Source of the DNA: a virus
Virus record (IMG/VR): IMGVR_UViG_3300012936_000185
Location: 1 to 22,897 of that record
DNA: 22,897 nt
Reading direction: 5' to 3' (one strand)
The notes beneath the pieces were generated by a model. The model was not told the DNA's origin. It saw only the letters and a program-made list of their open reading frames with translations, and did not search any database. The position numbers and the translations under genes were made by a program. Positions 2,840 through 22,897 of the stretch are shown here, one piece after another; the stretch's first letter is position 1, and every line of letters starts with the position of its first letter.

Positions 2840-5800
2840 ATGGTAAAAAGAGTAAAAATCAGTTCGGTAATCGAGAGCCAACTTCCTGCATTTGTAAGGG
2901 AGGATTTTCCTCGCGTAGCAGAGTTTTTACAAGAATATTATAGATCTCTTGATAGTCAAAGTGGTACACTAGATATCCTTCATAACATTGACAAGTATGT
3001 CAAGGTTGAAGAGATGACTAATCTCAACTTTGAAACAAGTTTGACATCTAACGTCTCAAGATTTGATGATACTGTTGAGGTTGAAGATACTACAGGGTTT
3101 CCAGATAACTATGGATTGATTCAGATTAACTCTGAGGTTATCACATATACAGGAAAAACTTCTACATCGTTTACTGGATGTGTTCGTGGTTTTTCTGGCA
3201 TCACATCATATAAAAGTCAAAATAAACCAGACTCTTTAGTTTTTTCTGATACTGCTATTGGTAAGCATACTAGTGGTGCAACAGTAAAAAACCTTAGTGT
3301 TCTTTTCTTAGATCAGTTTTTAAGAAAGACTAAAGCACAGGTTACTCCAGGGTTTGAAGATAGAACATTATATTCGGGTATTAATCAGAATGTCTTTATA
3401 AAGCAGTCTAAAGATTTTTATGAAACCAAAGGAACTGATCAGTCCTTTGAGATTCTGTTCAGAGCACTGTACGGAAAGGACGTAGAAGTTTTAAAACCAA
3501 GAGATAATCTTTTTGAACCATCAAACGCTCAGTATAGTGTTACTAAGGATCTTGTTGTAGAAGCTATTACTGGAGATCCTCTAAACTTAGAGAATAGGAC
3601 TCTCTTTCAAGATAAATCTTCCAACTATGAAGAGGCAAGCGGTTCTGTAACTAAAGTTGAAAAGTTTTCTAGAGACTCAAGGGATTATTATAAGTTAAGT
3701 CTTGACTTTGACTATGACAAAGATATCGACGTATTTGGATCTCTCTTTGGAGAGTTTAAGGTTCATCCAAAAACTAAGGTTATTACAGCAGTTTCTGCTG
3801 GTTCTAGTGTTCTTGATGTTGACTCAACAGTAGGATTTTCTACTTCGGGAACAATTGTTTTAAATAACGCTACTGGAACACCTACTGTAGTTACCTATGG
3901 TTCAAAATCTCTGAACCAGTTTTTTGAGTGCTCAAATGTTCCAGATGTTCTCGCCAAAACTTTTATAAGAGATAACGTATTTGCATACGCTTATGAAGGT
4001 CCAGGAAAAACTAACCCAATCACAGTTCGTGTTGGCGCTGTTTTATCGGATATAGAATTTGACACTACTACTGCAGGTCTTAAAGATAAAGATACTTTAA
4101 AAATCAAGTCTCTTGGTAGAAGAACTGATGATTCTAAGTCAAACAACTGGGTATTTAATATTCCAGGAACTTATGATGTAAAATCAATAGTTCTTGTTGA
4201 TGCATCAGACTTTACGTTTAGAATTACGACGCATGATAGAATAACTGCGTTTGATGGAGATATTCTCACCATAGTAGCACAAAACGGATTTACTGCACTG
4301 GGAGAGATTACTTCTGTTGAGAATGATGTCACAATCCAGGTAAGAGTTGGACAAACTCTCAATACCAGTCTCTCATACGAAATAAAGAAAAATCTCACAA
4401 AGGCAACCGCCACTAATTTCCCTAACATTAATAAAATTAATGCAAACGTTCAAAATGCTTACATAGATTTAAACGATAATCTTTATATTTCAACACCTTC
4501 TCTTCCAGCATACTTTAAGCAAGAGTTAAAAGTAAAAGATCGTTCTATTTCTTTTAGTGGAACATATACTGATGCTGAAGTCGTAAGAATCGGAGATCAT
4601 GGATTATATACTGGAGATTCTGTTGTTTATGTTCCTGGGACTGGAACAAACAAATTAAATATTGATGCAGGTGTATATTTTGTAAAGAGAGTATCTGCAA
4701 ATGAAGTTTCCATTTACAGAAGCAGAGCAAATATCTTTAATAATGTATTCATTGAAATCAATGGATCAGTAACCAATAACAAGTTTGAAATCTTTAGTCT
4801 TTCTGGACAAACTTTAGACTCTCAAAACCTTATTCGTAAGTTTCCGAACCCAGAAAACAGTCAAGTTGTTAATAAAACAACTCCTGGTCAAACTGGAATG
4901 TTGGTCAATGGTGTTGAGATCTTAAACTATAAGTCCTCAGACTCTATTTTTTATGGTCCGATCAACAATATTATTGTAACATCTCCTGGTTCTGGATATG
5001 ATGTTATCAATCCTCCTGTTTTAGGGATAACTGATCCAGTTGGAACTGGTGCAACTGGATTACTTGGTGTAGAGGGTTCTTTTGAAAATATCCTTGTAGA
5101 AGATGGTGGATTTGATTACATTGGAACTCCAACAATCACTATAACTGGTGGCGGTGGTCAAGGAGCAACTGCAAAAGCTGACATGATTACTGTGAAGCAT
5201 GTCAATAACTTCAATGCTTTTGGAGAGGCACTGCGTGTTGATCTGACTAATAATACTATAGGATTTTCTTCTTTCCACAAGTTTAGAAATGGTGAAGCAG
5301 TAATATATTCTACAAACGGTGCTGCAAATGTTGGCGGTATTTCAACGGATTCTGAGTATTATGTTTCTACTACAGAAAGTTCTTCATATGTAAAACTTCA
5401 TTATACCATGCAAGATGCCATTGCTGGCATTAACACTGTGAATATCACTTCTTATGGAGAGGGTACTCATTCATTTGTATCTAAGCAAAGAAAAAGAATA
5501 ATCAATCAAGTTAAGGTCACAAACCCTGGAACGGGATATAAAAACAAAGCAGTATATGCATCTAGAAGTCAGATCAACATTTATTCTGACACCATCAATG
5601 TAATAAACCATGGATACTTTGATGGAGACATTGTTGTTCATACGACAATGGGAACCTCTCCAACTGGATTGGTAGATGGAAATAGTTATTATGTTACCAA
5701 AGTAAATGATAACAGTTTCAGACTTTCTATTCTTGGTGACGGTACAACCGAAGAAAAAGATTTCTACTTTAAAACTAAGCAGTATGTAAATATAAGTTCC

Positions 5801-7300
5801 CAAGGAATAGGTATTCAAGTCTTCAACTACGAACCTATTAAAGTTACTGTTAATGGAGTTATAGGAATAACAACTTTCTCTAATCAAGATTTTGGTGCAA
5901 AGTTGTTGCCTGTTGTAAGAGGTCAAATCACTTCGGTTACAATGTCCAACAATGGCGTTGGATATGGTAGTAGTGAAATTATTGGAGATAATAGACAACC
6001 ACTGTTTACATTTAACAGAGGTTCTGGTGCAATATTAGAACCTGTTGTAATCAATGGGACTATTATTGAAGTTGTTATCAAGTCTGGTGGTTCTGGATAT
6101 AACTCTGTCCCATCTCTTAATATTATTGGAGACGGTCAAGGAGCAGAGTTAACACCTATCGTCAGAAATGGTTCTATTGTTGATGTATTCATTGCAAACA
6201 GTGGTTATAACTATACAAATAGTAAAACCAGTATTAACGTTCAACCAGCGGGATCTGGAGCCGCTTTGCAGGCAGAAATTAAGAACTGGGTAATAAATCT
6301 GTTTGAAAGATCTTTGATCGTTCCAAACATTACAGATGATGATGGATATCTTACTGAAGGATTAAATCCAGATTATGGACTTCAGTATTGTCACATTTAC
6401 GCACCTAGAAAGTTCAGGCAGAATGTTTATAGAGAGATAACAAGATTAAACACTCAGGTATTTGTTCCTGACCTAATCATTGATCCTGTATCTTCTGCAG
6501 AAATTGCATCCAAAAATCACTCACCAATCATTGGTTGGGCATATGATGGCAATCCAATATATGGTCCTTATGGATATGACAAACCAGATGGTGGTATTGT
6601 CAGAGCAATGGTCTCTGGATATGAAAGAAATACTCTAGATGATCGTCCTCCAGTAGCAAAGTTCCCTAAAGGATTTTTGATTGATGATTACCTGTTTACA
6701 AATAATGGAGATCTTGACAAATACAATGGAAGATTCTGTGTAACTCCAGAATATCCAAATGGAACTTATGCATACTTTGCTACAGTTTCAAATGGTCCAG
6801 CGGAATCTGTTGGTCCATTTAAAGGATATAAACTTCCACAGTTCCCATACTTTATTGGTGATGAGTACAGATCTGCTCCAGTTGATTTTAACTTTAAGAA
6901 AACATCCAATCAGAATGACTTTGATTTAGTTAGAAACAAACTTATTAGAAATACTACTCCATATAACAACAACTCAGATACTCAAAGATATGAGTATTAT
7001 ATTGATCCAACAACTATTCAAGATCATGATAGCACAATTGATGATGTTGAAAATGGAAAAGTAGAATCTATTAAGATTAAGAACAAAGGTTTAGATTATA
7101 AAGTAGATGATAGGGTAAAGTTTGATAATACGGAGACCAGTGGTAGAGGAGCTACAGCCAAAGTTTCTAGAGTTGATGGTGTTACTGTAACTGGAGTTAG
7201 TGTTGCAACAACTCAAGTTACTGGAGTTGAGTTTGGACAATCTGGATCTACTGGAGTTTTAGTTGGTTATGCTCAAGATCCTCATGGATTTATTAAATAA
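2840..7300 (+). CDS. giant gp7-like baseplate wedge protein, part before the internal TAA
   Basis: The frame opens with MVKRVKISSVIESQLPAFV and runs 1,486 residues to TAA at 7298-7300. Residues ~1-320 resemble the C-terminal region of T4 gp7 as I recall it. The best stretch, DFYETKGTDQSFEILFRALY (about 192-211), corresponds to T4 DFYSTKGIEASYKFLFKVLY. The 6-this-8 gene order matches T4. gp7 is the large outer wedge protein that binds gp6, gp8 and gp10. The rest is modular: HG-x-x-x-G-D modules near 4589, 5268 and 5602; G-x-G-Y modules near 4979, 5095, 5516, 5941, 6076, 6190 and 7078; and a YHYH-like domain at ~1210-1344 (IIGWAYDGNPIYGPYGY). The frame continues unchanged past the TAA to 15874, so this is probably the N-terminal third of one polypeptide. 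The gp7 assignment rests on remembered sequence plus synteny. Confidence 0.85.
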   Translation: MVKRVKISSVIESQLPAFVREDFPRVAEFLQEYYRSLDSQSGTLDILHNIDKYVKVEEMTNLNFETSLTSNVSRFDDTVEVEDTTGFPDNYGLIQINSEVITYTGKTSTSFTGCVRGFSGITSYKSQNKPDSLVFSDTAIGKHTSGATVKNLSVLFLDQFLRKTKAQVTPGFEDRTLYSGINQNVFIKQSKDFYETKGTDQSFEILFRALYGKDVEVLKPRDNLFEPSNAQYSVTKDLVVEAITGDPLNLENRTLFQDKSSNYEEASGSVTKVEKFSRDSRDYYKLSLDFDYDKDIDVFGSLFGEFKVHPKTKVITAVSAGSSVLDVDSTVGFSTSGTIVLNNATGTPTVVTYGSKSLNQFFECSNVPDVLAKTFIRDNVFAYAYEGPGKTNPITVRVGAVLSDIEFDTTTAGLKDKDTLKIKSLGRRTDDSKSNNWVFNIPGTYDVKSIVLVDASDFTFRITTHDRITAFDGDILTIVAQNGFTALGEITSVENDVTIQVRVGQTLNTSLSYEIKKNLTKATATNFPNINKINANVQNAYIDLNDNLYISTPSLPAYFKQELKVKDRSISFSGTYTDAEVVRIGDHGLYTGDSVVYVPGTGTNKLNIDAGVYFVKRVSANEVSIYRSRANIFNNVFIEINGSVTNNKFEIFSLSGQTLDSQNLIRKFPNPENSQVVNKTTPGQTGMLVNGVEILNYKSSDSIFYGPINNIIVTSPGSGYDVINPPVLGITDPVGTGATGLLGVEGSFENILVEDGGFDYIGTPTITITGGGGQGATAKADMITVKHVNNFNAFGEALRVDLTNNTIGFSSFHKFRNGEAVIYSTNGAANVGGISTDSEYYVSTTESSSYVKLHYTMQDAIAGINTVNITSYGEGTHSFVSKQRKRIINQVKVTNPGTGYKNKAVYASRSQINIYSDTINVINHGYFDGDIVVHTTMGTSPTGLVDGNSYYVTKVNDNSFRLSILGDGTTEEKDFYFKTKQYVNISSQGIGIQVFNYEPIKVTVNGVIGITTFSNQDFGAKLLPVVRGQITSVTMSNNGVGYGSSEIIGDNRQPLFTFNRGSGAILEPVVINGTIIEVVIKSGGSGYNSVPSLNIIGDGQGAELTPIVRNGSIVDVFIANSGYNYTNSKTSINVQPAGSGAALQAEIKNWVINLFERSLIVPNITDDDGYLTEGLNPDYGLQYCHIYAPRKFRQNVYREITRLNTQVFVPDLIIDPVSSAEIASKNHSPIIGWAYDGNPIYGPYGYDKPDGGIVRAMVSGYERNTLDDRPPVAKFPKGFLIDDYLFTNNGDLDKYNGRFCVTPEYPNGTYAYFATVSNGPAESVGPFKGYKLPQFPYFIGDEYRSAPVDFNFKKTSNQNDFDLVRNKLIRNTTPYNNNSDTQRYEYYIDPTTIQDHDSTIDDVENGKVESIKIKNKGLDYKVDDRVKFDNTETSGRGATAKVSRVDGVTVTGVSVATTQVTGVEFGQSGSTGVLVGYAQDPHGFIK
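6460..6880 (+). other. YHYH-like domain inside the giant structural protein
   Basis: Residues ~1208-1347 of the frame starting at 2840 contain HSPIIGWAYDGNPIYGPYGY, then FPKGFLIDDYLF, LDKYNGRFCVTPEYP and NGTYAYFATV. This is the layout of YHYH-family domains (SPIIGxAYDGxPIYGP, then a C-terminal YHYH). The name-giving tetrad here reads Tyr-Ala-Tyr-Phe. The domain's biochemical role is not known to me; in a baseplate protein it may be structural or may contact a ligand. Confidence 0.7.
7298..7300 (+). other. in-frame TAA splitting a ~4,340-codon frame
   Basis: Both large frames (2840-7300 and onward to 15874) are in the same phase, and the frame stays open from 7301. Upstream the protein reads QDPHGFIK and downstream DEVTISGLSTTNTNLQRFF. 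Together these form an HG-x-x-x-[TAA]-D-x-V module like HGLYTGDSVVY and HGFVTGQKVVY elsewhere in the same protein. The stop occupies the usual Gly/Asn position. No ATG or GTG start lies between 7301 and 7388. A nonsense mutation, a sequence error, read-through or an unusual restart could explain it. Confidence 0.9.
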
Positions 7301-7387
7301 GATGAGGTAACTATAAGTGGTTTATCGACAACAAATACAAATCTACAAAGATTCTTCTCAATAAATGTTCCAAAAAATACCCTCGTA

Positions 7388-10300
7388 TTGAGGTCAGGTA
7401 TTGGAAGCACCTCTACAACGGGTATAGTAACCTTTGTAAGTGTATCTGGTGAGATATCTGATATAAGTTCAGATGACATCTATACAATAAATGATGAAAA
7501 AGTTAGAGTCTTAAATGTAGACGAGAAGTCATCCAGATTAAGAGTTGAAAGAAACTATGATGGCACGGTTGGACTGGCACATAGTGCGTCTTCCTTTGTA
7601 TTTGAATCGCCAAGAAGATTATTTGTTAACGTTGGATATTCGGAAAAACTTGATCTGAAGGCAAACAAAAAGATTTACTTTAACCCAACAGAATCTATTG
7701 CAGCTGCTGGTTTCGGTGCAACTGACCTTGTAAGTGTGATCAACGTTGGTGTAGTTACTTTTGTTGGAATATCTTCAGCAATCACTGTAAGTATTTCTAA
7801 TCCAGGAACAGGAGTAACTGCAGTAACTCTGTCTGAGAAACAGATTTATCTTCCAAATCATGGATTAGAAACTAATGATAAACTGGTTTATACCCCTTCA
7901 GGTGGAGATTCTATAAAAGTATCTCTGGCACAAAGTGCCAGAACCGTAATTGATGGAAACACTGTAGTTGCAACTGACTATGTTGTTGGTATTAATACTT
8001 TTACACTCTCTAGTCAGCATATTTTATATGCTGCAAAGATAAGTGACGACATCATTGGTATTGCTACAAATCCTGTTGCCAAAGTTGATGGAACATTTGT
8101 TGGTATTGGTTCAACCAGCAGTGGGTTATTATTCTTTACTAATCTTGGTTCTGGACAAAAGCACAACTTTACAACTCAATATTCAAATACTATCAGCGGA
8201 TCAATCAATAGAAATGTTGTAACAGTTTCAACAGCATCTACTCATGCATTAGTTGCTAATGAATCTTTGAAGATTGATGTTTTATCTGGTGTTACTACAA
8301 CTCTGAAACTTTCTTATAATGAAGAAACGCGGAGAGTTCTTGGACCTAAAAAATCTTTTACAAGAGCAGAAGTTGATCTCTTAGATAATATTATCGAAAT
8401 TCCAAATCATGGATTCGTAACAGGACAAAAAGTAGTTTATGTGTCTGCACTGTCTTCTTCTGATAGAGTTATTTTAAAGGATACTGTTATTAGTGAGACA
8501 ACCATATTCCCATCACCATTAGAAGTTGAAAGACCATTTACACTGAGAGCAACTTCTACTGGCGTTATCATTGTTGACGCTGACGCTATTCCAAATAATA
8601 GTATATTCTATGTTACTGTTCTAGATTATAATAGGATTCAACTTGCAACTTCTTACCATAATGCAACCAAACCAACTCCAACCGTAGTTGATCTTATCTC
8701 CAATACTTTTGGTAGTGTTTCACCAGTTAACCCACCAATAGCATTAATCAAGAATCAAACGGTTGACTTTGATCTCTCTGATCCATCTCTTTCATACAAG
8801 AGAGGATCTATTGATTATCCTGCATTTGAGTTTAACTTGTATACTGATGCAAACTTCAAAAACAAGTTCTTCTCATCTACGCAAACAGATGTTTTTGAAG
8901 TTACATCTTCTGGTAAGATAGGAACATCTGGTGCTAAAATATCCATTTTAGTTTCAGATTATCTTCCTAAAAACTTATACTATAGATTAACACCAGTAGA
9001 TATAACAGAAACCCCAGAACCCTTTAGAGAGGTTCTTGTAGATGATGAAAATATTCCAAATAACAATGCAATAATCGTTACCTCTAGCGGTTATAGTGGA
9101 AATCACAGAATCACTGGAGTTACAACAGACACGATTCAATATAATGTATTACTGAAACCCGAGAAAGATTCTTATAATACTTCAGAGGCTGTAATGACTT
9201 ACAGCACTAACTCTAGAAGAGCTATTGGTCCAATCAATGATATTAATATTCGCAGTGGTGGTAAAAACTATGAGTTGCTTCCTGCGATAACAAGTGTTGG
9301 ATCTACTTGGGGTAGAGGTGCTATCTTAGAGGCAGAGTCCTCTAGTATTGGTAAAGTTGATCATTATTGTATTAATGACATTGGATTTGATTATCCATCA
9401 GATAATACTCTTAGACCTTCTATTAGTGTCCCTCAGATATTAAAACTTGAACCACTAGCAGCAATTGAAAAAATTGGTATTAGTTCTGTAGGTGTAGGAT
9501 ATGGTATTGCACCAGATCTTATTTTTATCGATGGTAATACTGGAAAAGTAGTTGATGTTGATCTCTCATATAAGTTGGGTGATAGTACAGTCACCATTAA
9601 TAAAAACAGCACAGAGATCTATAATATTACTCCAGTTATTATTCCAACAAATAACACTAACGGTGTTGGTATTAGTTCCATCACTTATGATAGTGGACAG
9701 AAAACTGTTGAGATTGTCTTAAAGACTGTTGGTTACAGCACTGCAAGTACATTCCCATTTGAAGTTGGTGATAAAATCTACGTAGAAAACGTCAGTGTTG
9801 GAGTTGGAAGCACTGGAAGAGGGTTTAACTCTGAAAAATACAACTATAAGTTATTCACTGTTACCGAGACTGATCCTAATATTGGCGGAGCAAATCCAAC
9901 CATCAAGTATAGTCTTGATGGAGATTTAACTGATGGAAGAGTTCCTGGAGTTTTTGACTCTAGCAACTCTGCTGGTAGAGTAATACCTCAAAAGTATTTC
10001 CCAATCTTTGCAGTCACTCTTAGGAAAAATACGTTTATCCAGGGAGAAATTGTACGTTCTGGTCTAAAAGAAGGTTTAGTTGAAAGTTGGAACTTTAGAG
10101 GAGATGATCTAAATGTAAGATTAACCTCAGATTCAACATTTAAGACTGGAGATATTGTAAGAGGGGAAACGAGTGGTTCTGTTGCTACGATTGAAAGCAA
10201 TAAAACTTATAAAGCATCATACGTTATTGGAGGAACCAGCATTGTAGAAAATGGTTTCTTAAAGGATACTGGAAGAGTCAACTTTGATCTCCAAAGACTG

Positions 10301-13300
10301 CATGATAATGATTACTACCAGTACTTCTCATATTCTGTTAAGTCTGAAGTTGATCTTGAGAAGTGGGATAATGCTGTAAGCTCTCTAGATCATACTGCGG
10401 GATTTAAGAAGTTCAGTGATCTACAACTGGTGTCTGCTGGTGCTACAACTGGTATTGCGACAGATCAAAATGACGGAGACTTCTTAGGTATTGCCAATAT
10501 TGATCAGTTAATTGATCTAAACTGTGTAAACGATTATGATTTAGCAACTGAAAACAATATCTTTATTAATGACGAGGTTCGTTCTGATGAGATTATCTTA
10601 AAAACAAGAGATCTCCAAGATTATTTTGAATCGATTGGTAATAGAGTCTTAATGATTGATGATATTAGTGATCAGTTTAATGACAGACCAAGACCTACAA
10701 GATTCTCAGTTATTGATGAGTTCCCACTCACAAGTTTCCGTGCTAGGAAGTATCTCCTTTTTGTTCGTGATAGAAGATTTACAGAAACTAGAGAAAACAT
10801 TTTTGTTTCAGTACTTCACGATGATCAGTTTGGTTATCTTAACCAATATGCAAGGGTTGAAACTGTCGAAGACATGGGTTACTTCGACTTTGATATTGTT
10901 AACGGTAATGGAAGACTTCTGTTCTTCCCAGAGAAGTTTAGATTTAACAACTTTGATGTAACTTTTGCTGCATATGGTCTGAAAGATGGTATCTCTGGAG
11001 TTGGCGACACATCTTTGGGAAATGTTTCTGAAATAAGAACAACAACTAAAGATGTTCCAACTGGTGTTGTAACTCCTATCGTCTCTATTGCAAATACCTA
11101 TAGAGCATCAAAACTTCTGATTGATATACAAACCGATGATCAACGCTATGAGTTTGATGAGTTTACCATTATTCATGATGGTAATGGATCTTGTGGAGAG
11201 ATTGATGCTATTGAATATGCACAGTTAACCTCACACTCCCGTGATGACGCAAGTAGCGTTGGTCTTGGAACTTACAGTGTTGTTTGTGGTGCTGCAACAA
11301 CTCAGTCATATCTTGTTGGTCTTAGCACTGCACTCTTCACATCTTTGGTTGGATTTGCTACTGCACCTAATGGAACAGGTATTGGCAATAACGGCGGATT
11401 TGCGATTGGAACACACCTCAAAGTATTTGGAGATACAGGAATTGGCACAGACAAGAGAGTTGCTATTACAACATCACTTGATGTACAAACTTTAGATACC
11501 TTTGTCTTAACTGGTCTTGCTGGTGATGATAATAATGGTGGCGAAGAACCAATGGATGCTGTTGGTAGAAATGAGTCTTTAGTGCTTAACTACAGTATTG
11601 ATGGCGGGACCACATTTATTGGTATCGGTACTATTATTGGACCAAATGATGTTACCGCTCCATTGAGAGAGTACTCTCTGACAATTCCTGTTGCTGCTAG
11701 AACATCATCTACAATATTCCAGATTGAGCAACCAACATCTAATGGATCTGCATTTGATGAATATGGTATCACTCATATTGGATTTAGAGATTCTTCAGGA
11801 ACTGATAATATTATTGTCAACTTCCACCCATTTGCAGGTGTTGCTGCAACAGTTGATATTCTTAGAGTCTCTATTGGAGACACTTCGGCAACAGGAGTTG
11901 GAACAACAACTCTCAATACTGCTATCATTGATTCCAACTATACCTCTATCGGATCTTCAAGTTCACCAATAGAAAATACAGTGGCAACGTATGATGCCAG
12001 AATCTATAATGGTGGATATTACATTGCTACTGTAGAAGATCTCACAAACGGTTACTCTCAGGTTTCTGAGTTAATGGTTGCCAACAATGATCAGTTTACC
12101 AACATCACTGAGTTTGGTGAACTGGTCACGATGGTCACTCTTGGTGAGTTTGGTATAAGAAGATCTGGCGATGAAGTTCAGATTACATTTGAACCAAATC
12201 CAGACGCTGATATGGAAGTCAGAATCTTCCAGAATGCAATGAGACTGGTAGATCCTCTAAATGGAGTAACTACTGTAGATCTCAATAATGGTACGATTCA
12301 AACAGGTGCTGGAGAATATTTTGGTACGGAAAATGATGTTAAGAGATCATTTGAACTCACTCATAGAAATCTCCCAATCTTTAGAAGAGTATTTGATCCA
12401 GGTGCAGTTGGTGTTGTAAGTATTACCGATAATACCTTTAGAATACCAGAAAACTTCTTTGTAACTGGCGAAGAAGTTACTTATACTGCTGCAGATAGAC
12501 TGATTCTACCAGAACCTGTTGGTATTGCTACCACTACTATTGCAGGTGTTTCTACAGATAAACTTCCATCAACAGTTTACATTGTCAAACTGAATGAACT
12601 TGATGTTCAAGTTGCTGCTAGTGCATCAGAAGCATTATCAGTACCACCCTCAGTCTTAGATATTACCTCTGTTGGTGTTGGAACTGTTCACAGATTTGAT
12701 GCACGCAAACAGAATACAAAAGGTTTGGTTGCTCTTGATACCATGATTCAATCGCCTATTGCAGGTTCTGCAATTACGATGAGTCTTGTAGAGACAGTTC
12801 AACCAACCACAGATCGTATTACACTCAGTGGTATAACCTCAGTTTTTGCTGGCGATCTTCTTAAGGTCAACAATGAAATCATGAGAGTTGCAACAGTTGG
12901 TGTTGGAACTACCAACGTCTTGATTGTTAATAGACCTTGGATGGGAACTGGACTGGGAACTCACCAAAGTGGAGATGGTATCACCAAGATTGTAGGTAAC
13001 TATAATATTCAGGATAACCAACTTCACTTTGCTGCAGCACCTTTCGGCGCATATCCTCTCAGCACAACCAGTGGACGTGTAGATGAAAGAGATTGGACTG
13101 GAGTCACTACACATAGTACCTTTAGCGGAAGAATTTTTACAAAAACTTCCGAAGAGGGTAGTAATATTGAACCATACGCTAACAATGTAATATTTGACGA
13201 TATCTCAACAGATTTCAATGGCATCACAACTTCCTTTAGATTAAAATCTGAAGGAAATGACGTTACAAACGTTGCTCAGGATAATGGTATTATTCTGGTC

Positions 13301-15874
13301 AGAGACATCTACCAAGGACCAAGAAGAGCAGATGATGTAGTTATTATTGGTGGTGATTATGAACTTGTTGAGGGTTCTGGAATAACCACTGCTATTTTCC
13401 AAGGAACTGATAATAATGTCAAGTATGACAACAATACAAACAACATCCCCAGAGGCGGTATAATAGTCTCTCTTGGATCAACAGAGTCTCGTGGGTATCA
13501 ACCCCTCATTGGTGCTGGAGCGACCGCCACAGTGTCTTCTGGGGCGATTACAGCGATCTCTATTGGTAACACTGGAGCTGGTTATAGAGAGTGGTATCAA
13601 ACTGAAATATTAGTCAGTGCTTACAATCCAGTAACAGGAACATCTTCAACTATTGGTGTTGCAACTGTATTTGATGGTCATGTTATTGGTACAAGACTGG
13701 ATTCTCCAGGAACTGGATATGCCAGCACCAATCCTCCAACAATATTACTTGATCATCCTTCAGGATATTCAAATATTCCACTGATATACTCTAATGATTA
13801 TCCTAATAATAGTGGAGTTGGTACAGGTTTAGTTGTTGATATAACTGTAGGACAAGGTTCTACGGTAGTCGATTTCAACATTGTTAACTATGGATTTGGA
13901 TATAAAGAAGGAGACATTCTCACTATTCCAAGAAGTGGTATTGGTAGTATACCTCGTGATTCTGGTATTGGTCATGTTGAGTTTACACTCACTGTACAAA
14001 AAACCTATAGAGATGAGTTCAGTGGATGGTCTCCTGGAAACTTCCAGAGATTTGACGATATAAGCACTCTCTTTAACGGATATAGAACTGCATTCCCATT
14101 AGTCTTTAATGGAGTTAGAACATCTATCCGTGCTAAGAAAGGATCTCAAATCGACGTACAAGCAGCATTACTTGTCTTTATCAATGATATTCTCCAGATC
14201 CCTGGAGAAGGTTATATCTTTGATGGTGGATCTACTATTACATTCACTGAGGCACCTATTGGATATGATGAATCTGCACCATATAATGGTGATCAAGTTA
14301 AGATCATGTTCTATAGAGGATCTAAGGATATTGATGTTGTTTTAGTAGATGTTCTTGAAACCATTAAGGTTGGCGATACTGTTGAACTATATGATGATCA
14401 TCCTGTATACGATGAGGATCCAAGACTTGTTGTAGATATTACAGCGACTGATACTTTAGAAACTAACGTTTATCCTGGTCCTGGAATCTCCACAGATCTT
14501 TCTTATGAGAGAGCATTACAGTGGTGCCGTCAAACCGAAGATAAGATTATCAATGATCAACCAGTAGCAAAAGATAGAGAAATCTATAAATCACTGGTAA
14601 ATCCAGCAGCTGCTATCTTGCAGGATGTTGGAGTTGGTGATACTACAATCTACGTTGAGAGTGTTAGGACATTCTTTGACAGCACCAAAGAAAATGCTCA
14701 AGGAAAGATTAAAAACTCTATTGAGATTATGTCTCAAGATGCAGTATGTGCCGCTGCTGCAACTGCTGTAGTTTCCGCTGCTGGTACTATCTCATCTATT
14801 GTTCTTACAGATCCAGTCACTGGACTTGGAACTACAGGTGCTGGTGGATCTGGATATTTAACTGCCCCAGATGTAACCATATCACTACCAACTGGAATAG
14901 GTATAACAGGTAAAGCAGAAGCAACCGCTAACATTAGCAATGGAATGGTGACTAGTTTCACCATTACTAATCCTGGTTATGGATATACATTTACCAATGT
15001 TCCTTTGGTAATGATATCAGAACCCAAACTTCATAAGGAAGAACTTCTCGGTAAGGGTTATAGTGGTGATTTTGGTATTATTGTTGGTGTTGCCACAACA
15101 TCAGTTGTTGGAACTGCAACTACTGGAGTTAAGGGTTTAATTCTTAATCTTGAGATCGAAGATGATTCTTTCCTCAGAGATCCTGCATATGTGGGAACTG
15201 CTATTAGCGAAACTAGAATTCAAGTTGGAGATTACTTTGCTATTAGTAACACCAACTTAGGTTTTGGAATGACTGCTCTTAGATATGCTGATGGATCTGT
15301 GATTAGTTATGGATCAACATTCTTTGATGGAATCTATCAAGTTGCTAATGCTGAATATGGATCAAGTCTTGCAGGGACTTTAATCGAAGAAACTCGCTAT
15401 GTCACTATTGACTTTGAAATGTTTGATAGTCCTGTTGTGGTCGGTCCAAATGACCCAGACGGAACTCTTATCACTGGCTCACCATTCACATTTAGTGTAA
15501 CAGAAACTATTGATAGTCCTGTAGAGATTTCTGCAACATCTACTGCAAGAATATTAAATGGAGTCACTCTTACAATTGATGATATTGCAAGAACTGCCCT
15601 TATTGTTAATGATTCTGCGAGAGCAATCATTGGTGACAGTGTTCCCTCTAGAATCACAGTTCGGGTTGAAGACTACAACGGACTTGTTCCACAACAATAT
15701 CCAGGTAGTTATAAAGGAAGATTCTATGGTGACTATAGTTGGGGTAAGATTGACATTACTCAAAGGACTTCAACTAGAGACTTTGTTGGATATTCTACAG
15801 AAGGTTATGTTGGTCTTTCATCTTCACCATTTATTAGAAGAAAGAATCCACTTAAGACAATCAACTATCTTTGA
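7388..15874 (+). CDS. giant gp7-like baseplate wedge protein, part after the internal TAA (5' limit uncertain)
   Basis: The first standard alternative start codon after the TAA is TTG at 7388, but the frame is open from 7301. Residues encoded by 7301-7387 complete a recurrent module, so TTG is probably not a natural start. From TTG the product would be 2,828 residues. Visible modules: HG-x-x-x-G at 7852, 8399 and 12442; an INDE-type module at 7478 with a copy near 12850; G-x-G-Y units near 9246, 9370, 9479, 13562, 13696, 13879, 14839 and 14962; YQYFSYSVKSEVD then DHTAGFKKF near 10316-10415; and FDDIS-T-x-F-N-G units near 13193 and 14051, the second followed by LLVFINDILQIPGEGY. Such beta-rich modules are common in phage tail and fibre proteins. 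It ends RRKNPLKTINYL at TGA 15872-15874. I read it as the C-terminal two thirds of the protein begun at 2840, an outer baseplate wedge component. Confidence 0.8.
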   Translation: MRSGIGSTSTTGIVTFVSVSGEISDISSDDIYTINDEKVRVLNVDEKSSRLRVERNYDGTVGLAHSASSFVFESPRRLFVNVGYSEKLDLKANKKIYFNPTESIAAAGFGATDLVSVINVGVVTFVGISSAITVSISNPGTGVTAVTLSEKQIYLPNHGLETNDKLVYTPSGGDSIKVSLAQSARTVIDGNTVVATDYVVGINTFTLSSQHILYAAKISDDIIGIATNPVAKVDGTFVGIGSTSSGLLFFTNLGSGQKHNFTTQYSNTISGSINRNVVTVSTASTHALVANESLKIDVLSGVTTTLKLSYNEETRRVLGPKKSFTRAEVDLLDNIIEIPNHGFVTGQKVVYVSALSSSDRVILKDTVISETTIFPSPLEVERPFTLRATSTGVIIVDADAIPNNSIFYVTVLDYNRIQLATSYHNATKPTPTVVDLISNTFGSVSPVNPPIALIKNQTVDFDLSDPSLSYKRGSIDYPAFEFNLYTDANFKNKFFSSTQTDVFEVTSSGKIGTSGAKISILVSDYLPKNLYYRLTPVDITETPEPFREVLVDDENIPNNNAIIVTSSGYSGNHRITGVTTDTIQYNVLLKPEKDSYNTSEAVMTYSTNSRRAIGPINDINIRSGGKNYELLPAITSVGSTWGRGAILEAESSSIGKVDHYCINDIGFDYPSDNTLRPSISVPQILKLEPLAAIEKIGISSVGVGYGIAPDLIFIDGNTGKVVDVDLSYKLGDSTVTINKNSTEIYNITPVIIPTNNTNGVGISSITYDSGQKTVEIVLKTVGYSTASTFPFEVGDKIYVENVSVGVGSTGRGFNSEKYNYKLFTVTETDPNIGGANPTIKYSLDGDLTDGRVPGVFDSSNSAGRVIPQKYFPIFAVTLRKNTFIQGEIVRSGLKEGLVESWNFRGDDLNVRLTSDSTFKTGDIVRGETSGSVATIESNKTYKASYVIGGTSIVENGFLKDTGRVNFDLQRLHDNDYYQYFSYSVKSEVDLEKWDNAVSSLDHTAGFKKFSDLQLVSAGATTGIATDQNDGDFLGIANIDQLIDLNCVNDYDLATENNIFINDEVRSDEIILKTRDLQDYFESIGNRVLMIDDISDQFNDRPRPTRFSVIDEFPLTSFRARKYLLFVRDRRFTETRENIFVSVLHDDQFGYLNQYARVETVEDMGYFDFDIVNGNGRLLFFPEKFRFNNFDVTFAAYGLKDGISGVGDTSLGNVSEIRTTTKDVPTGVVTPIVSIANTYRASKLLIDIQTDDQRYEFDEFTIIHDGNGSCGEIDAIEYAQLTSHSRDDASSVGLGTYSVVCGAATTQSYLVGLSTALFTSLVGFATAPNGTGIGNNGGFAIGTHLKVFGDTGIGTDKRVAITTSLDVQTLDTFVLTGLAGDDNNGGEEPMDAVGRNESLVLNYSIDGGTTFIGIGTIIGPNDVTAPLREYSLTIPVAARTSSTIFQIEQPTSNGSAFDEYGITHIGFRDSSGTDNIIVNFHPFAGVAATVDILRVSIGDTSATGVGTTTLNTAIIDSNYTSIGSSSSPIENTVATYDARIYNGGYYIATVEDLTNGYSQVSELMVANNDQFTNITEFGELVTMVTLGEFGIRRSGDEVQITFEPNPDADMEVRIFQNAMRLVDPLNGVTTVDLNNGTIQTGAGEYFGTENDVKRSFELTHRNLPIFRRVFDPGAVGVVSITDNTFRIPENFFVTGEEVTYTAADRLILPEPVGIATTTIAGVSTDKLPSTVYIVKLNELDVQVAASASEALSVPPSVLDITSVGVGTVHRFDARKQNTKGLVALDTMIQSPIAGSAITMSLVETVQPTTDRITLSGITSVFAGDLLKVNNEIMRVATVGVGTTNVLIVNRPWMGTGLGTHQSGDGITKIVGNYNIQDNQLHFAAAPFGAYPLSTTSGRVDERDWTGVTTHSTFSGRIFTKTSEEGSNIEPYANNVIFDDISTDFNGITTSFRLKSEGNDVTNVAQDNGIILVRDIYQGPRRADDVVIIGGDYELVEGSGITTAIFQGTDNNVKYDNNTNNIPRGGIIVSLGSTESRGYQPLIGAGATATVSSGAITAISIGNTGAGYREWYQTEILVSAYNPVTGTSSTIGVATVFDGHVIGTRLDSPGTGYASTNPPTILLDHPSGYSNIPLIYSNDYPNNSGVGTGLVVDITVGQGSTVVDFNIVNYGFGYKEGDILTIPRSGIGSIPRDSGIGHVEFTLTVQKTYRDEFSGWSPGNFQRFDDISTLFNGYRTAFPLVFNGVRTSIRAKKGSQIDVQAALLVFINDILQIPGEGYIFDGGSTITFTEAPIGYDESAPYNGDQVKIMFYRGSKDIDVVLVDVLETIKVGDTVELYDDHPVYDEDPRLVVDITATDTLETNVYPGPGISTDLSYERALQWCRQTEDKIINDQPVAKDREIYKSLVNPAAAILQDVGVGDTTIYVESVRTFFDSTKENAQGKIKNSIEIMSQDAVCAAAATAVVSAAGTISSIVLTDPVTGLGTTGAGGSGYLTAPDVTISLPTGIGITGKAEATANISNGMVTSFTITNPGYGYTFTNVPLVMISEPKLHKEELLGKGYSGDFGIIVGVATTSVVGTATTGVKGLILNLEIEDDSFLRDPAYVGTAISETRIQVGDYFAISNTNLGFGMTALRYADGSVISYGSTFFDGIYQVANAEYGSSLAGTLIEETRYVTIDFEMFDSPVVVGPNDPDGTLITGSPFTFSVTETIDSPVEISATSTARILNGVTLTIDDIARTALIVNDSARAIIGDSVPSRITVRVEDYNGLVPQQYPGSYKGRFYGDYSWGKIDITQRTSTRDFVGYSTEGYVGLSSSPFIRRKNPLKTINYL

Positions 15875-15880
15875 TAAATA
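15873..15880 (+). promoter_or_regulatory. T4-type late promoter box GATAAATA upstream of gp8
   Basis: GATAAATA fits NATAAATA exactly and overlaps the TGA of the preceding giant gene, as the box at 264-271 overlaps its upstream stop. It lies 19 bases before the gp8 ATG, giving a leader of roughly a dozen bases. A promoter here would let gp8 and the next gene be expressed independently of the 13-kb gene upstream. Confidence 0.6.
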
Positions 15881-15899
15881 AGTAAAAAACTCATAAGAA

Positions 15900-17495
15900 A
15901 TGGCTGCCATTATAACTGACCAACTGAGGATTTTGAATGCTAAGAACTTTGTTTCTTTGGCATCATCTGATAAAAACTCATATTATGCGTTTGTTGGTCT
16001 ACCCCACCCACAGGAGTTGTATTCAGATTGGGATACAACTCCACCTGCTCCTAAGGATGCTGAAGATCAGGAGAACTCTTATTGGGACACGATGATCGCT
16101 CTCAAAAAGATTATACCTGGTGATGTCAGACAGGTAGTCAGAAAGATTGAGTGGGTCTCTGGAAATACTTATGATATGTATCGTCATGATATAACTAGAG
16201 ATCATCCATCTAAACCATCTCAAGCACTCAGTATTTACTCTGCAAATTATTATGTTGTAAATAGCGATTTCAGAGTTTATATTTGCTTACAAAATGGTAC
16301 TAACCCAGAAAACCCAAATGGGAGACCCTCTCTTGATGAACCAACATTCACAGACTTAGAACCAAGGGCAGCTGGTTCTAGTGGTGATGGTTATGTCTGG
16401 AAGTATCTCTATACTATCAAACCAAGTGATATTGCAAAGTTTGATACTATTAACTTTATGCCAGTTCCAAAAAACTGGGATACTGAAACTTCAACAGACG
16501 CTTGTGGTAACAATGTAGCATCTGTTAGAGAAAATGCTGGCACCAGTGGACAAATCAAAATTTGTACCATCAAGAATCGTGGCGTTGGCATTGGAACTGC
16601 CAATACAACATACACTAAAGTTCCTATCAGAGGTGATGGATCTGGTGCAGAGTGTACTATTGTAGTTAATAATGATTCAAAAGTAGAGTCTGTTACTGTC
16701 TCTAATGGTGGTTCTGGTTATTCATATGGAACTATAGACACAAATGCTGGTGGTGTTCCATCAGGAACTACTTCTCCAGTGTTTGACGTGATTATTCCAC
16801 CACAAGGTGGTCATGGGGCAGATATTTACAGAGAACTTGGTGCTTTTAGAGTCTTGGTTTATTCAAGAATTGAAAATGACACTCAAGATCCAGATTTTAT
16901 TACTGGAAACCAGATTTCTAGAATTGGTTTGGTAGAAGATCCAAAAGCATTTGGAACAACTACTGTTTTAAGAAAATCAAAAGCAAGTGCTCTGGGTGCT
17001 ATTCGTTTGGGTATTGGATACAGCACTGCAACATATCCAGCAGACTCTGTGATTTATCAAACTATTGGAACAGGATCTACTGCTGTTGCTAGAGTTGTAT
17101 CTTACGATAAAACAACAGGTGTATTGAAGTATTGGCAGGATAGAACTCTTGTTGGATTTAATACCGATACAACAAATCTTCTTGAGTTCACTAAAAATAC
17201 CTCTCCAACATATGGATTTGATTTAAAGGATTTTACAGCAACTCCATCTAGTGGCGGATCTATTCAAATCATCAAAGCAGGTGACACTGCAGGTGTTGGT
17301 ATTGATACTGCACTTACTGGTTCTACACTGTCACTAAATAATAAAACATACAACTTGGGTCAAGAGTTTACAAGTGGTCTGGCGAATCCAGAGGTTCAAA
17401 AGCACACTGGAAATATTCTTTATGTAGATCATAGACCTGCGATTACAAGATCTCAAAATCAAAGAGAAGACATAAAAATAGTATTGCAATTCTAA
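15900..17495 (+). CDS. gp8: gp8-like baseplate wedge protein with extra modules
   Basis: The product has 531 residues against 334 for T4 gp8, which sits in the outer wedge with gp7 and gp10. Two segments match T4 gp8 well: SGDGYVWKYLYTIKPSDI at about residues 161-178 (T4 GDGYVWEYLFEIPPDV) and HTGNILYVDHRPAI near 502-515, followed by DIKIVLQF at the end (T4 HSGEMIYMENRPPI… INILFTF). YRELGAFRVLVYSRI, about residue 309, marks the central conserved strand region. The extra length lies mainly at about 215-300, which carries G-x-G-Y units (VSNGGSGYSYGTI), and about 365-430 (VIYQTIGTG, ARVVSYDKTTGVLKYWQD). The start MAAIITDQLRILNAKNFV is the first ATG after a late promoter; the ribosome site is weak. 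The next gene starts six bases after its stop. Confidence 0.92.
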   Translation: MAAIITDQLRILNAKNFVSLASSDKNSYYAFVGLPHPQELYSDWDTTPPAPKDAEDQENSYWDTMIALKKIIPGDVRQVVRKIEWVSGNTYDMYRHDITRDHPSKPSQALSIYSANYYVVNSDFRVYICLQNGTNPENPNGRPSLDEPTFTDLEPRAAGSSGDGYVWKYLYTIKPSDIAKFDTINFMPVPKNWDTETSTDACGNNVASVRENAGTSGQIKICTIKNRGVGIGTANTTYTKVPIRGDGSGAECTIVVNNDSKVESVTVSNGGSGYSYGTIDTNAGGVPSGTTSPVFDVIIPPQGGHGADIYRELGAFRVLVYSRIENDTQDPDFITGNQISRIGLVEDPKAFGTTTVLRKSKASALGAIRLGIGYSTATYPADSVIYQTIGTGSTAVARVVSYDKTTGVLKYWQDRTLVGFNTDTTNLLEFTKNTSPTYGFDLKDFTATPSSGGSIQIIKAGDTAGVGIDTALTGSTLSLNNKTYNLGQEFTSGLANPEVQKHTGNILYVDHRPAITRSQNQREDIKIVLQF

Positions 17496-17501
17496 CGAAT
17501 T

Positions 17502-20500
17502 ATGCCACAGGAACTCAACCTCAACGTATCGCCATATTTTGACGATTTCAATAAAGATAAAGAATACTACAAGGTTCTATTCAAACCTGGGTATCCTGTA
17601 CAGGCGAGAGAGCTAACTGGTCTCCAGTCAATTCTACAGAACCAGATAGAGCAGTTTGGTAACCACGTTTTTAAGGAGGGATCTGTTGTAATCCCTGGCC
17701 AGATCAGTTATATTGACAACTACTATGCAGTAGAAGTTCAATCTGAGTATCTTGGCATTAACATTTTAGCATATCTCAAATCTCTTGTTGGTAAAACGAT
17801 AAGAGGAGAAAATACTGGTGTTAGAGCAACAATCATTTCGGTATTGCCATCTACAGAGTCTGAAAGAGGTAACAACACTTTATACGTAAACTTTTTAGAT
17901 TCTGATTATCTTACTTCTTCATATCAATCTTTTGCAAATGATGAAGTTCTCCTTTTAGAGGAAGGTTTATTTGGATCTAATGAAATTGAAGCGGGTAAAA
18001 GTATTATTGTTCAACCTGGATCTGGTTTTGCAGTAACTATTCCTGTTAATACGAACTCGGTTGGTTCAGCAATATATTTGAATGAAGGAGTATATTTTTT
18101 AAGAGGTTATTTTGTAACTGTTCCTGAGCAAACTTTAATCCTTGATCAATATAGCAATACATCTAGTTATAGAGTTGGTTTTCAAATAACAGAAGAGGTT
18201 GTAGACTCTAATGAAGACGAATCTCTTGTAGATAATGCAAAGGGATTCAATAACTATGCTGCTCCTGGAGCAGATAGATTAAAAATCACTGCAGATCTTG
18301 TTAAAATAGACCTCGGTCAAAATGACGTAGAAAACTTCGTAGAGTTATTAGAAGTAAGAAATGGAGTTTTAAGATCTTTAATCCAAGATTCTCAATATAA
18401 TATCCTTGGTGATGAACTGGCAAAGAGAACTTTTAATGAATCTGGTGATTACTACATTAATCAACCAACTGTCATTTCAAAAGAAACTCTCAATGACCTT
18501 AAGGGAAATGGTGGTATTTTTAATGCAGGAGAGGTAACTTATAATAACAATAATCCAAGTGATGATCTGGCAACATATCAGATTTCTCCAACTAAAGCAG
18601 TTGTAAAAGGATATTCTGTAGAAACTATCAGCTCTGCTTTTGTAGATTTCCCCAAACCAAGAACTACAAAATCAGTTACTAACCAAAGAACAAACTATGT
18701 AACTGGTCCAACATATACTCTTAATAGAGTTCATGGTTCTCCAGAAATTGGCATTGGAACTAATTTTGTTGTTCATTTGATGGATTCCCGTAAGGGAGCA
18801 TCTGGAATCGCCTCTGCTGGAAGGGAAATTGGACTTGCTAGAGTTTATGACTTTGCATTAGAAAGTGGATCTTATGATACCACTAATCCAGATACTAATG
18901 AATATGATATTTCATTGTATGATATTCAAACATACACAGAAATAACCCTGAATCAAGGAGTTGAACTTACTGTTCCTACTCATGTAAGAGGAAAATCTAG
19001 TGGTGCAACTGGATTTTTAAGATATAATACATCTGGGGGAAGACTCCTCACAGTATATAATACCAAAGGAAAGTTTAGAGATGGTGAAGAGTTTATCTTT
19101 GACGGTGTAGATAACTCTAGAGTTTCTGTCGCAACTACTGCGTATGGAACGGAGCAAGTAAAATCAATATTTGCCACTGTTGCAATAGGGGGAACATTTA
19201 ACGCTGATATCAAACAGCGCACTGCAACCACTGTAGGTTTTGTAAGCATCACAGCTTCATCTGGTGGAGTTAGTACTGTAACTTCTGCTGATGTTAACTT
19301 CGTGGGTATTGCAACTCTTGGAAGCACGGTAGCATTTACTAATGCTGGTTACTCTACGGTAAGTCTTGCTAGAGTCAACAGTGTTTCTAGATCTTCTTTG
19401 ACTATTGCTGGTGTAACAACAGTTGCTGGTATTTGTGATGGTGCTCTTCCCACAAATACTATTTCTCCAAGCGATTTTAGAATATTATCTTCATCGTTCC
19501 AGTCTTCAACTGATAATACTCTTTATACAGTATTACCTAAGAAGAATATTTCTAATGTAGACACTGCAAACTCTTCTCTTATTATTAGAAAAAAATATTC
19601 AGTTACTGTTGCTAGTAATGAGACTAGCACGATTCAAACTAATGCAGGCGAAACCTTCTTACCATTTGATGAAGAGAGATATCTTCTCATGCGTAATGAT
19701 GGAACTGTAGAGGAGTTAACTGCTGATAAGTTTATTTTTAACTCTGCGAATACAACTTTAAAGATTGAAGGTTTAGCAAATACTGATGGGGGCGCAACTC
19801 TGATTGCAACACTCACAAAATCATCAGTCACAGCGAAACAAAAAAATAGAAAGAAGATTAATGTTTTAAATCTTACTTTCTCATCAAATGCAGCATCTGG
19901 AGTTGGCACAACTACTCTCAATGACGCTCTTACCTATGGAACATATCCATATGGAACCAGAGTACAAGATAAGGATATCTGTTTACTAAAACCAGATGTT
20001 ACTAACCTCTGGGGTGTCTTTGAATCCGATGATAATGCATTTGCAGATCTGCCCTCTATCAATCTAACTGGAATCAGTGGCGTTAATGCAAAAACTACTG
20101 ATCTTCACATTGGTGAGGAGTTTGAAGGGCAGAGTAGTGGTGCTATAGGCATTTATTGTGAAAAGTTATCTGATAGTAAAATTGGATATATTTTACTTAA
20201 TCAAGAACTTTTCCAAGAAGGAGAAACCTTAAAGTTCAAAGAAACTGGTGTCCTAGCAACTGCAGAGATTACTAATAGAGGTGATAACAATATCACCAGA
20301 AACTATACTCTTGATAATGGTCAAAGATCTACGATTTATGATTATGGAAGAATTGTAAGAAAGGATCTCAAATCAGCACCAACAAGAAAGTTGAAAGTTG
20401 TATTTGAAACCGCTGAGTTTAGTTCTTCAGATGCTGGTGATATTATAACAGTTAACAGTTATAATGAGTTTGATTATGGTGATATCACTAGAGTAAATGG

Positions 20501-22897
20501 CATTCCAAACTCAGATATTCTTGATATTAGACCAAGAACGTCTACAGTAGGTGTTGTTACAACTGGAGATTTATCTCCCTTTGAGTTTAGAGGTAGATCT
20601 GTCAATGCTACTGGAAACTCTGTTCCTAATATTTTGGCAGGTGACGAACAGATTAATATTGGATATTCATATTATCTTCCTAGAATAGACAGACTGTTCT
20701 TGACCAAAGATGGTGTATTCCAGTTAAATCGTGGCACCCCTGCAGAAAGTCCTCAACTACCAAGTGCTGTCGATGATGCAATAGAAGTTGCAAGAGTATC
20801 CCTCCCAGCATATCTCTATAATGTTGATAATGCAGACATCGATGTCTTTGAGTATAAGAGATATAAGATGTCCGACATCAATAAACTTGAGAAGAGATTA
20901 AGTAATCTTGAACTCTTTACTGCATTATCTCTTCTTGAGGTTGATACTGCTAATCTTCCAATCAAAGATAACAATGGACTGATAAGATTTAAGTCTGGTT
21001 TCTTTGTTGATGACTTCTCTTCAACAAAGGCGCAAAGAAAGGAGACTATCGTAAAAAATAGTATTGATATTGTCAATAGTGAGTTAAGACCTGCTCCTTA
21101 TACTACTGAAGTTGATCTCCTTCTCGGAAGCACTTCTACAATAGGTATTAATGGCGCTGCAGATCCTTTTGTTGATACTGAGTTTGTTTCTGATTTACTT
21201 GGTTCAAATGTTAAGAAAACAGGACAACTTGTAACTCTTGATTACACAGAAGTTTCTGAAGTTGAGCAACCATATGCAACTAGACAAGAGAGAGTTTCTC
21301 CTATTCGTTCTTCTTACTATGGAGGAAGCATTGAGTTGACTCCATCATCAGATGTTTGGGTTGATCAAACAACAGTAAATGCTAGAAACAATGAATATCT
21401 GAGTAACTACACCGAATCTCCAGAACAGTTGGGTGTAACTGATAATGATAAGCAGACAGGATTTAACCCAGTTGTTTGGGGTTCTTGGGACACATTCTGG
21501 TCAGGTTTAGATGATGGATATTCATCTAATATCCTTGAAAACTATGATGTAGTAAATGATTACATTCAGACATATAACAAGACAGGAACGACTTCAGTTC
21601 AAAATGCAAGAAAGGTTCTGAAGAATCTTTTCGGTGATAATGCTAGTTCTCAGATTGTTCCATATCTCAGAACTAGAAATATTGAATTTGTTGCCAGAAG
21701 AATGAAACCATTTACAAGAGTTTATGGCGTCTTTGAAGGACAAGATATTCAAAAATATATGATTCCTAAACTGATAGAAATTGAAATGATTTCTGGTTCT
21801 TTCCAGGTTGGAGAGACAGTTGTTGGATTATTTGGAAGTAAGTTTGATACTAACATTCCATCAATCAAGTTTAGAGTTGCTCAACAAAATCATAAGTTTG
21901 GTCCATATAACCTGCCAACTCAAGTCTTTGGTGCAAATCCATATTCTAGAGAAGCAGTTATTCCTTCAGCATATTCAGCAACCTCTACAATATTAAACGT
22001 TGATACTTACAGTTTGTCTGCACAATCTCTTGGAGACTTCTACGGTTGGGTAACGACTAACATGACTTTAAGAGGTCAAACCAGTGGAGCTGAAGCAACC
22101 ATCAGAGACGTTAAGTTTATTACAGATCAAAAAGGTGTGGTTGTTGGTTCTCTCTTTATTCCAGATCCAAGTATTACATCAAACCCAGCATTTGAAAGTG
22201 GCGTAAAAACATTTAAACTTTCAAGTAACAAGGTTCTGTCTCAAACTAGTGGCGTTCCTCTTACAAGCGCAGAAGAAAAGTTCTATTCTGTTGGCATCTT
22301 AAATAATACTCAAGAGAATCTAACTGCTACACGTCCAGTTAGATCTGAAACTCAGAACCTTGTAGATTTCACTATTAATAGGAGTGGTAAGTCGTCTGTT
22401 GTTTCTACAACTACTTTAGGTAACGATTCTCCATCACAAACACCTAGTGGTGATATAGCATCTCCTACTGCAGGACTTCAAGGTGTTCAGGGAACTCAAG
22501 GTGCTCAAACATCTCAGTTTGTCTCTGGTATTCAAGGAACGGTAACTTCTATCGGAACAATAGAACCAACTGCTTCACCAGCATCTCCAGATACGGTTGC
22601 TCCTGGTCCTGTTAATATTGCAAGTGAGTTTTTCTCTGTTTCTATAGGTCCATCAGCAACATCGACAAACTTAACTGCTTCTGCAAATGAAACTGTAGAA
22701 GTAAGCACAACGTTTTTAGCAACCTCTGATATTTCTCAGTCTTCTAGTGCTAGCAACAATAATGGCGGTGGTTCTAGTAGTTCTAGTAGTTCTAGTAGTT
22801 CTGGCAGCAGTGGATCAGGTGGTAGCAGCGGATCAGGCGGCAGTAGTGGATCAGGTGGTAGCAGCGGATCAAGTGGCAGTAGTGGATCAGGTGGTAG
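17502..22897 (+). CDS. very large virion structural protein with DUF4815-type N-terminus (3' end outside window)
   Basis: From ATG 17502 the frame is open to the window edge, at least 1,798 residues. The N-terminus has SPYFDDFNKDKEYYKVLFKP, then GYPVQARELTGLQSILQNQI and FGNHVFKEGSVVIPG, the pattern of phage proteins I know as DUF4815. Around 1123-1165 a likely short coiled coil (MSDINKLEKRLSNLE) is followed by ALSLLEVDT, GLIRFKSGFFVDDF. Near 1395-1425, RRMKPFTRVYGVFEGQDI resembles a recurring phage fibre/baseplate motif. The C-terminal visible part is low complexity: four collagen-like triplets, an Ala/Ser/Thr/Pro-rich stretch, then Ser/Gly repeats. It follows gp8 where T4 has genes 9 and 10, suggesting a peripheral baseplate or fibre-attachment role. 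That role is inference; I see no enzyme motif. Confidence 0.88.
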   Translation, partial: MPQELNLNVSPYFDDFNKDKEYYKVLFKPGYPVQARELTGLQSILQNQIEQFGNHVFKEGSVVIPGQISYIDNYYAVEVQSEYLGINILAYLKSLVGKTIRGENTGVRATIISVLPSTESERGNNTLYVNFLDSDYLTSSYQSFANDEVLLLEEGLFGSNEIEAGKSIIVQPGSGFAVTIPVNTNSVGSAIYLNEGVYFLRGYFVTVPEQTLILDQYSNTSSYRVGFQITEEVVDSNEDESLVDNAKGFNNYAAPGADRLKITADLVKIDLGQNDVENFVELLEVRNGVLRSLIQDSQYNILGDELAKRTFNESGDYYINQPTVISKETLNDLKGNGGIFNAGEVTYNNNNPSDDLATYQISPTKAVVKGYSVETISSAFVDFPKPRTTKSVTNQRTNYVTGPTYTLNRVHGSPEIGIGTNFVVHLMDSRKGASGIASAGREIGLARVYDFALESGSYDTTNPDTNEYDISLYDIQTYTEITLNQGVELTVPTHVRGKSSGATGFLRYNTSGGRLLTVYNTKGKFRDGEEFIFDGVDNSRVSVATTAYGTEQVKSIFATVAIGGTFNADIKQRTATTVGFVSITASSGGVSTVTSADVNFVGIATLGSTVAFTNAGYSTVSLARVNSVSRSSLTIAGVTTVAGICDGALPTNTISPSDFRILSSSFQSSTDNTLYTVLPKKNISNVDTANSSLIIRKKYSVTVASNETSTIQTNAGETFLPFDEERYLLMRNDGTVEELTADKFIFNSANTTLKIEGLANTDGGATLIATLTKSSVTAKQKNRKKINVLNLTFSSNAASGVGTTTLNDALTYGTYPYGTRVQDKDICLLKPDVTNLWGVFESDDNAFADLPSINLTGISGVNAKTTDLHIGEEFEGQSSGAIGIYCEKLSDSKIGYILLNQELFQEGETLKFKETGVLATAEITNRGDNNITRNYTLDNGQRSTIYDYGRIVRKDLKSAPTRKLKVVFETAEFSSSDAGDIITVNSYNEFDYGDITRVNGIPNSDILDIRPRTSTVGVVTTGDLSPFEFRGRSVNATGNSVPNILAGDEQINIGYSYYLPRIDRLFLTKDGVFQLNRGTPAESPQLPSAVDDAIEVARVSLPAYLYNVDNADIDVFEYKRYKMSDINKLEKRLSNLELFTALSLLEVDTANLPIKDNNGLIRFKSGFFVDDFSSTKAQRKETIVKNSIDIVNSELRPAPYTTEVDLLLGSTSTIGINGAADPFVDTEFVSDLLGSNVKKTGQLVTLDYTEVSEVEQPYATRQERVSPIRSSYYGGSIELTPSSDVWVDQTTVNARNNEYLSNYTESPEQLGVTDNDKQTGFNPVVWGSWDTFWSGLDDGYSSNILENYDVVNDYIQTYNKTGTTSVQNARKVLKNLFGDNASSQIVPYLRTRNIEFVARRMKPFTRVYGVFEGQDIQKYMIPKLIEIEMISGSFQVGETVVGLFGSKFDTNIPSIKFRVAQQNHKFGPYNLPTQVFGANPYSREAVIPSAYSATSTILNVDTYSLSAQSLGDFYGWVTTNMTLRGQTSGAEATIRDVKFITDQKGVVVGSLFIPDPSITSNPAFESGVKTFKLSSNKVLSQTSGVPLTSAEEKFYSVGILNNTQENLTATRPVRSETQNLVDFTINRSGKSSVVSTTTLGNDSPSQTPSGDIASPTAGLQGVQGTQGAQTSQFVSGIQGTVTSIGTIEPTASPASPDTVAPGPVNIASEFFSVSIGPSATSTNLTASANETVEVSTTFLATSDISQSSSASNNNGGGSSSSSSSSSSGSSGSGGSSGSGGSSGSGGSSGSSGSSGSGG
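22473..22508 (+). repeat. collagen-like Gly-x-x run (4 triplets)
   Basis: In frame with the gene from 17502, the residues are Gly-Leu-Gln, Gly-Val-Gln, Gly-Thr-Gln, Gly-Ala-Gln. Collagen-like runs are common in trimeric phage fibres. Four triplets alone would not make a stable helix, so this may be a linker or a remnant. A further GIQGT follows soon after. Confidence 0.5.
22773..22799 (+). repeat. three exact 9-bp tandem repeats TCTAGTAGT
   Basis: TCTAGTAGT occurs at 22773-22781, 22782-22790 and 22791-22799, in frame with the large gene. With the next TCT codon it encodes ten serines after Asn-Asn-Gly-Gly-Gly. The units are identical at DNA level, which points to recent slippage duplication. 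Confidence 0.9.
22806..22897 (+). repeat. five 18-bp units encoding Ser-Ser-Gly-Ser-Gly-Gly, cut by window end
   Basis: Units begin at 22806, 22824, 22842, 22860 and 22878, each around GGATCA, and encode SSGSGG (the fourth SSGSSG). Odd and even units differ by synonymous changes (AGT GGA TCA GGT GGT against AGC GGA TCA GGC GGC or AGT GGC), giving a 36-bp higher period. The array runs on past the window. Confidence 0.92.

Follow-up and report, generated by a model that had tools for sequence, protein, structure and literature searches.

The interrupted gene and its neighbourhood

The window analyzed here, a virus record of 22.9 kb (IMGVR_UViG_3300012936_000185, positions 1–22,897), contains a giant reading frame broken by one stop codon, which raises the question of whether this stop belongs to the phage or only to the contig. 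The preliminary description had given a TAA at 7298–7300 as the sole interruption of the frame 2840–15874, and our frame scan bore this out: on the plus strand, the frame runs from an ATG at 2840 to a TGA at 15872–15874, with 4,344 codons ahead of the final TGA, 1,486 of them before the internal TAA and 2,857 after it. No second lesion was detected by the scan, either in these 2,857 codons or in the other genes.

The frame lies in a baseplate cluster with the order gp25-gp6-gp7-gp8, all on the plus strand. Upstream are a gp25-like wedge gene (524–925, 133 aa; PF04965 GPW_gp25 and phrog_261) and a gp6-like wedge gene (926–2833, 635 aa; phrog_219, E 2.5e-194, and the Gp6-like_1st Pfam domain), while an intact gp8-like wedge gene follows (15900–17495, 531 aa; phrog_438, E 1.7e-158, and Pfam Phage-Gp8). 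Pfam and PHROGs confirm, through gp25, gp6 and gp8, the earlier view that the baseplate gene lies between gp6 and gp8. In profile searches, both halves of the interrupted protein fit collinearly on phrog_2885, a profile of 4,179 positions (P0001 at 8–1481; P0002 in four stretches, the best at 1843–2741; E given as 0 in both cases), and a query piece bridging the stop gave one continuous match to the same family. Judged from these matches, which run the length of the protein, and from its position between gp6 and gp8, the frame 2840–15874 is a giant gp7-like baseplate wedge gene of T4-like cyanophages, although in the contig as it stands the TAA keeps it from being a single uninterrupted frame. 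Searching solved structures with either half gave no match. Within the protein, residues 1222–1317 (window 6503–6790) match a YHYH domain (PF14240, E 2.3e-23).

The peptide around the stop reads ...YAQDPHGFIK-stop-DEVTISGLSTT..., as first noted, and the four modules to which it had been likened (HGLYTGDSVVY, HGYFDGDIVVH, HGLETNDKLVY and HGFVTGQKVVY) are all present in the gp7-like protein. The claim that the stop stands where the others have Gly or Asn also holds, its counterparts being, in order, G, G, N and G. Among the 91 homologues spanning the site (see below), this is a variable position that starts a module in which length variation is common.

The stop site in the closest relative and in other homologues

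The closest relative found is the IMG/VR viral contig IMGVR_UViG_3300037963_002714 (L002), which aligns with the window without gaps over 6,422 bases at 92.8% nucleotide identity. The alignment covers the greater part of gp6 and the beginning of gp7, and L002 ends 426 bases past the site. Its frame is open there, with Asn-Lys at codons 7295–7300 where the window has Lys-stop, owing to two adjacent bases at 7297–7298 (plus strand). These two bases, which fall in an A-rich run, are the sole differences between the contigs in the 30 bases around the site. An equivalent reading of the 6-base stretch is that two neighbouring A-runs each changed by one base and so compensated each other, one A being gained in one short run and one A lost in the next. 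Adjacency alone is not unusual, since 42 of the 465 bases at which the contigs differ begin an adjacent pair.

L002 was the only close relative returned by a downstream-protein scan of viral contigs. A degenerate DNA pattern covering the site matched 41 contigs, the only close match at the site being L119, which is the L002 contig again, and a scan of GTDB genomes found no relative.

We then compared a wider set of viral contigs and cultured phages, as had been proposed. Ninety-four loci have a stretch over the site; leaving out the window's own copy, L002 and the duplicate L119, 91 further homologues remain, and each spans the site as a single open stretch. A stop is present at the site in none of the 92 other homologues (the 91 and L002), and none ends and restarts there. 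The residue found instead is most often L (18), N (16), G (14), K (12, including L002 and its duplicate), S (8) or R (6), with F, T, Q, Y and others making up the rest.

Selection on both sides of the stop

Compared with L002, the part of gp7 before the stop has a dN of 0.030 and a dS of 0.298 (dN/dS ~0.10), and the 141 codons after it a dN of 0.019 and a dS of 0.303 (dN/dS ~0.06). Third positions account for 24 of the 31 differences after the stop. Over the 141 codons compared, purifying selection is as strong past the stop as before it, so this part of the gene was under purifying selection until very recently.

Contig error or recent nonsense allele

According to our analysis, the TAA is best explained as a local error in the consensus or assembly of the metagenomic contig, with a probability of about 0.6. 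Two adjacent bases in the A-rich run would have been called or merged wrongly, and the phage itself would carry an uninterrupted gp7-like gene encoding one wedge protein of ~4,345 residues, like its relatives. We favour an error because L002 is open and departs from the window near the site only at the bases that make the stop, because the 91 other homologues are all free of a stop there, because dN/dS is as low after the stop as before it, and because the downstream codons and the other genes bear no second lesion. The compensating changes in two A-runs also have a shape that suggests a consensus error. The gp7 of T4 is an essential wedge protein, and losing two thirds of such a protein should be lethal, which also counts for an error. 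The homologues are open at the site and the codons just downstream are under purifying selection; that the lesion is technical rather than biological is our inference. Against this, errors of this kind are rare in short-read assemblies, and the TAA could instead have arisen by a true change of two bases, or by one change if the ancestor had Lys-Lys.

The main rival, ranked second as a tentative possibility, is a real and very recent nonsense allele in the sampled phage population, either in the genome of a dead or defective particle or as a minority variant that reached the contig; any rescue would come from co-infection or from weak natural read-through. As a fresh mutation predicts, the surrounding DNA is otherwise perfectly coding, and the target is large: 1,195 of the 4,344 gp7 codons (~27%) are one substitution away from a stop, and ~2% of neutral substitutions would be nonsense. 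However, the consensus of a contig should show the majority allele, selection should remove an allele that costs a wedge protein two thirds of its length, and the close relative L002 is open.

The preliminary description had left four explanations standing: base or assembly error, recent loss-of-function allele, read-through and split gene. This list was well founded, but it can be shortened. Since the relatives are open at the site and no restart or read-through signal is seen, an error or a very recent allele remains, while read-through and a split gene are unlikely for the reasons given below.

Read-through, code reassignment and split genes

Programmed or host-assisted read-through of the TAA would yield two forms, of ~1,486 and ~4,345 residues. 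It would explain the intact frame past the stop and the purifying selection on the first 141 codons of that frame. We nevertheless consider it very unlikely, since a conserved programmed event would be expected in L002 at 93% identity and is absent there, as it is from every other homologue read. Folding of the 100 bases downstream was no stronger than that of shuffled sequence (z = +0.58), giving no sign of a stimulatory structure, the neighbouring genes usually end in TAA, and no tRNA gene, hence no suppressor tRNA, was found within the 22.9 kb window, the rest of the genome being unseen. That the lineage truly carries the stop and has recently evolved a dual-product wedge gene by low-level read-through is less probable again.

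Reassignment of TAA to an amino acid in this phage, to which we give practically no weight, would account for the continuing frame, its only support. Yet the 4,344 codons hold just one TAA, and five other frames of the window, as had been stated, close with TAA (at 268, 473, 925, 2833 and 17495), gp25, gp6 and gp8 among them; the one at 288–473 is small, with 61 codons, and unproven. Whole-genome reassignment had already been judged unlikely, and the usage of TAA agrees. Recoding was rejected, as the many in-frame TAA codons and the disuse of TAA as a terminator that mark recoded phages were both lacking.

A naturally split gene, with one protein ending at 7300 and a second starting just downstream, is a slim prospect that we rank below programmed read-through. 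Some phages do appear to have split gp7-like genes (B23 and L043), but no homologue read breaks at the stop site, and the break in the window has no start of its own. The first 180 bases after the stop hold no in-frame ATG or GTG; the first conventional start in frame is a TTG at 7388, 29 codons on, with no visible ribosome-binding sequence ahead of it. Reinitiation was rejected on the same grounds. Moreover, the known split forms change frame and restart at once, whereas the window keeps its frame.

Frame breaks in other gp7-like genes

None of the 94 gp7-like loci surveyed, with a gp7-like span of ~865 kb, is interrupted as the window is, by one in-frame stop alone. Frame breaks were seen in five of them: L020, L043, L076, S-SKS1 and B23. 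The Synechococcus phage B23 (L132, genes 257/258) is split at 14408 and L043 at about 7700–7753. In terms of the window protein, both splits fall at the same homologous place, around residue 3,148, where the frame changes and an ATG stands at the break. Shared by two otherwise separate phages, the split looks genuine, and the giant wedge protein may naturally be encoded there by two genes. It is not homologous to the window's stop, since it lies ~1,660 residues beyond it and combines a change of frame with an ATG directly at the break. A literature search returned nothing specific on split or truncated gp7 in cyanophages.

The other three breaks differ from one another. In the Synechococcus phage S-SKS1 (L125), the gp7-like gene is in four pieces over 8324–20710, with three frame changes, mostly beside A-runs; these are probably old sequencing errors, and most of the gene (8323–15320) is without annotation. 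L020, a contig of the metagenome that also yielded L002, breaks frame at 6513–6659, a short way downstream of the homologous site, and seems to have lost ~60 residues there. In L076, a single frame change at about 5902–5918 looks like a small indel; its counterpart in the window protein is near residue 1,188.

Implications

The window's stop most probably reflects a slip in sequencing or assembly, or else a recent dead-end mutation, and not new biology. As an error it would serve as a caution: a gene of ~13 kb offers single-base errors a large target, and an automated annotation would list a truncated baseplate protein followed by a false second gene. Were the stop real, it would mean that a T4-like phage can live with the truncation of an essential wedge protein, or can regulate it. 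The split shared by B23 and L043 may be of more interest than the window's stop.

Comparison with known phages

The nearest cultured relatives are T4-like phages of Synechococcus and Prochlorococcus, which have gp25 and gp6 in the same place. In tblastn, cultured phages gave one continuous stretch across the stop site, and the gp7-like gene is unbroken, at ~12.2–13.0 kb, in Bellamy, RN05-S, SynMITS9220M01, S-SM2, P-TIM68 and S-SCSM1. The PHROG 2885 relatives in Synechococcus phages (Bellamy gene 111, S-SM2 gp7 and RN05-S) are collinear with the window protein over both halves and share the order gp25-gp6-gp7, with gp8 next or close by; S-SM2 and, judged by position, Bellamy have the gene order of the window. 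In Bellamy, S-SM2 and RN05-S, the gp7-like gene is one unbroken frame, whereas that of the window carries one internal TAA.
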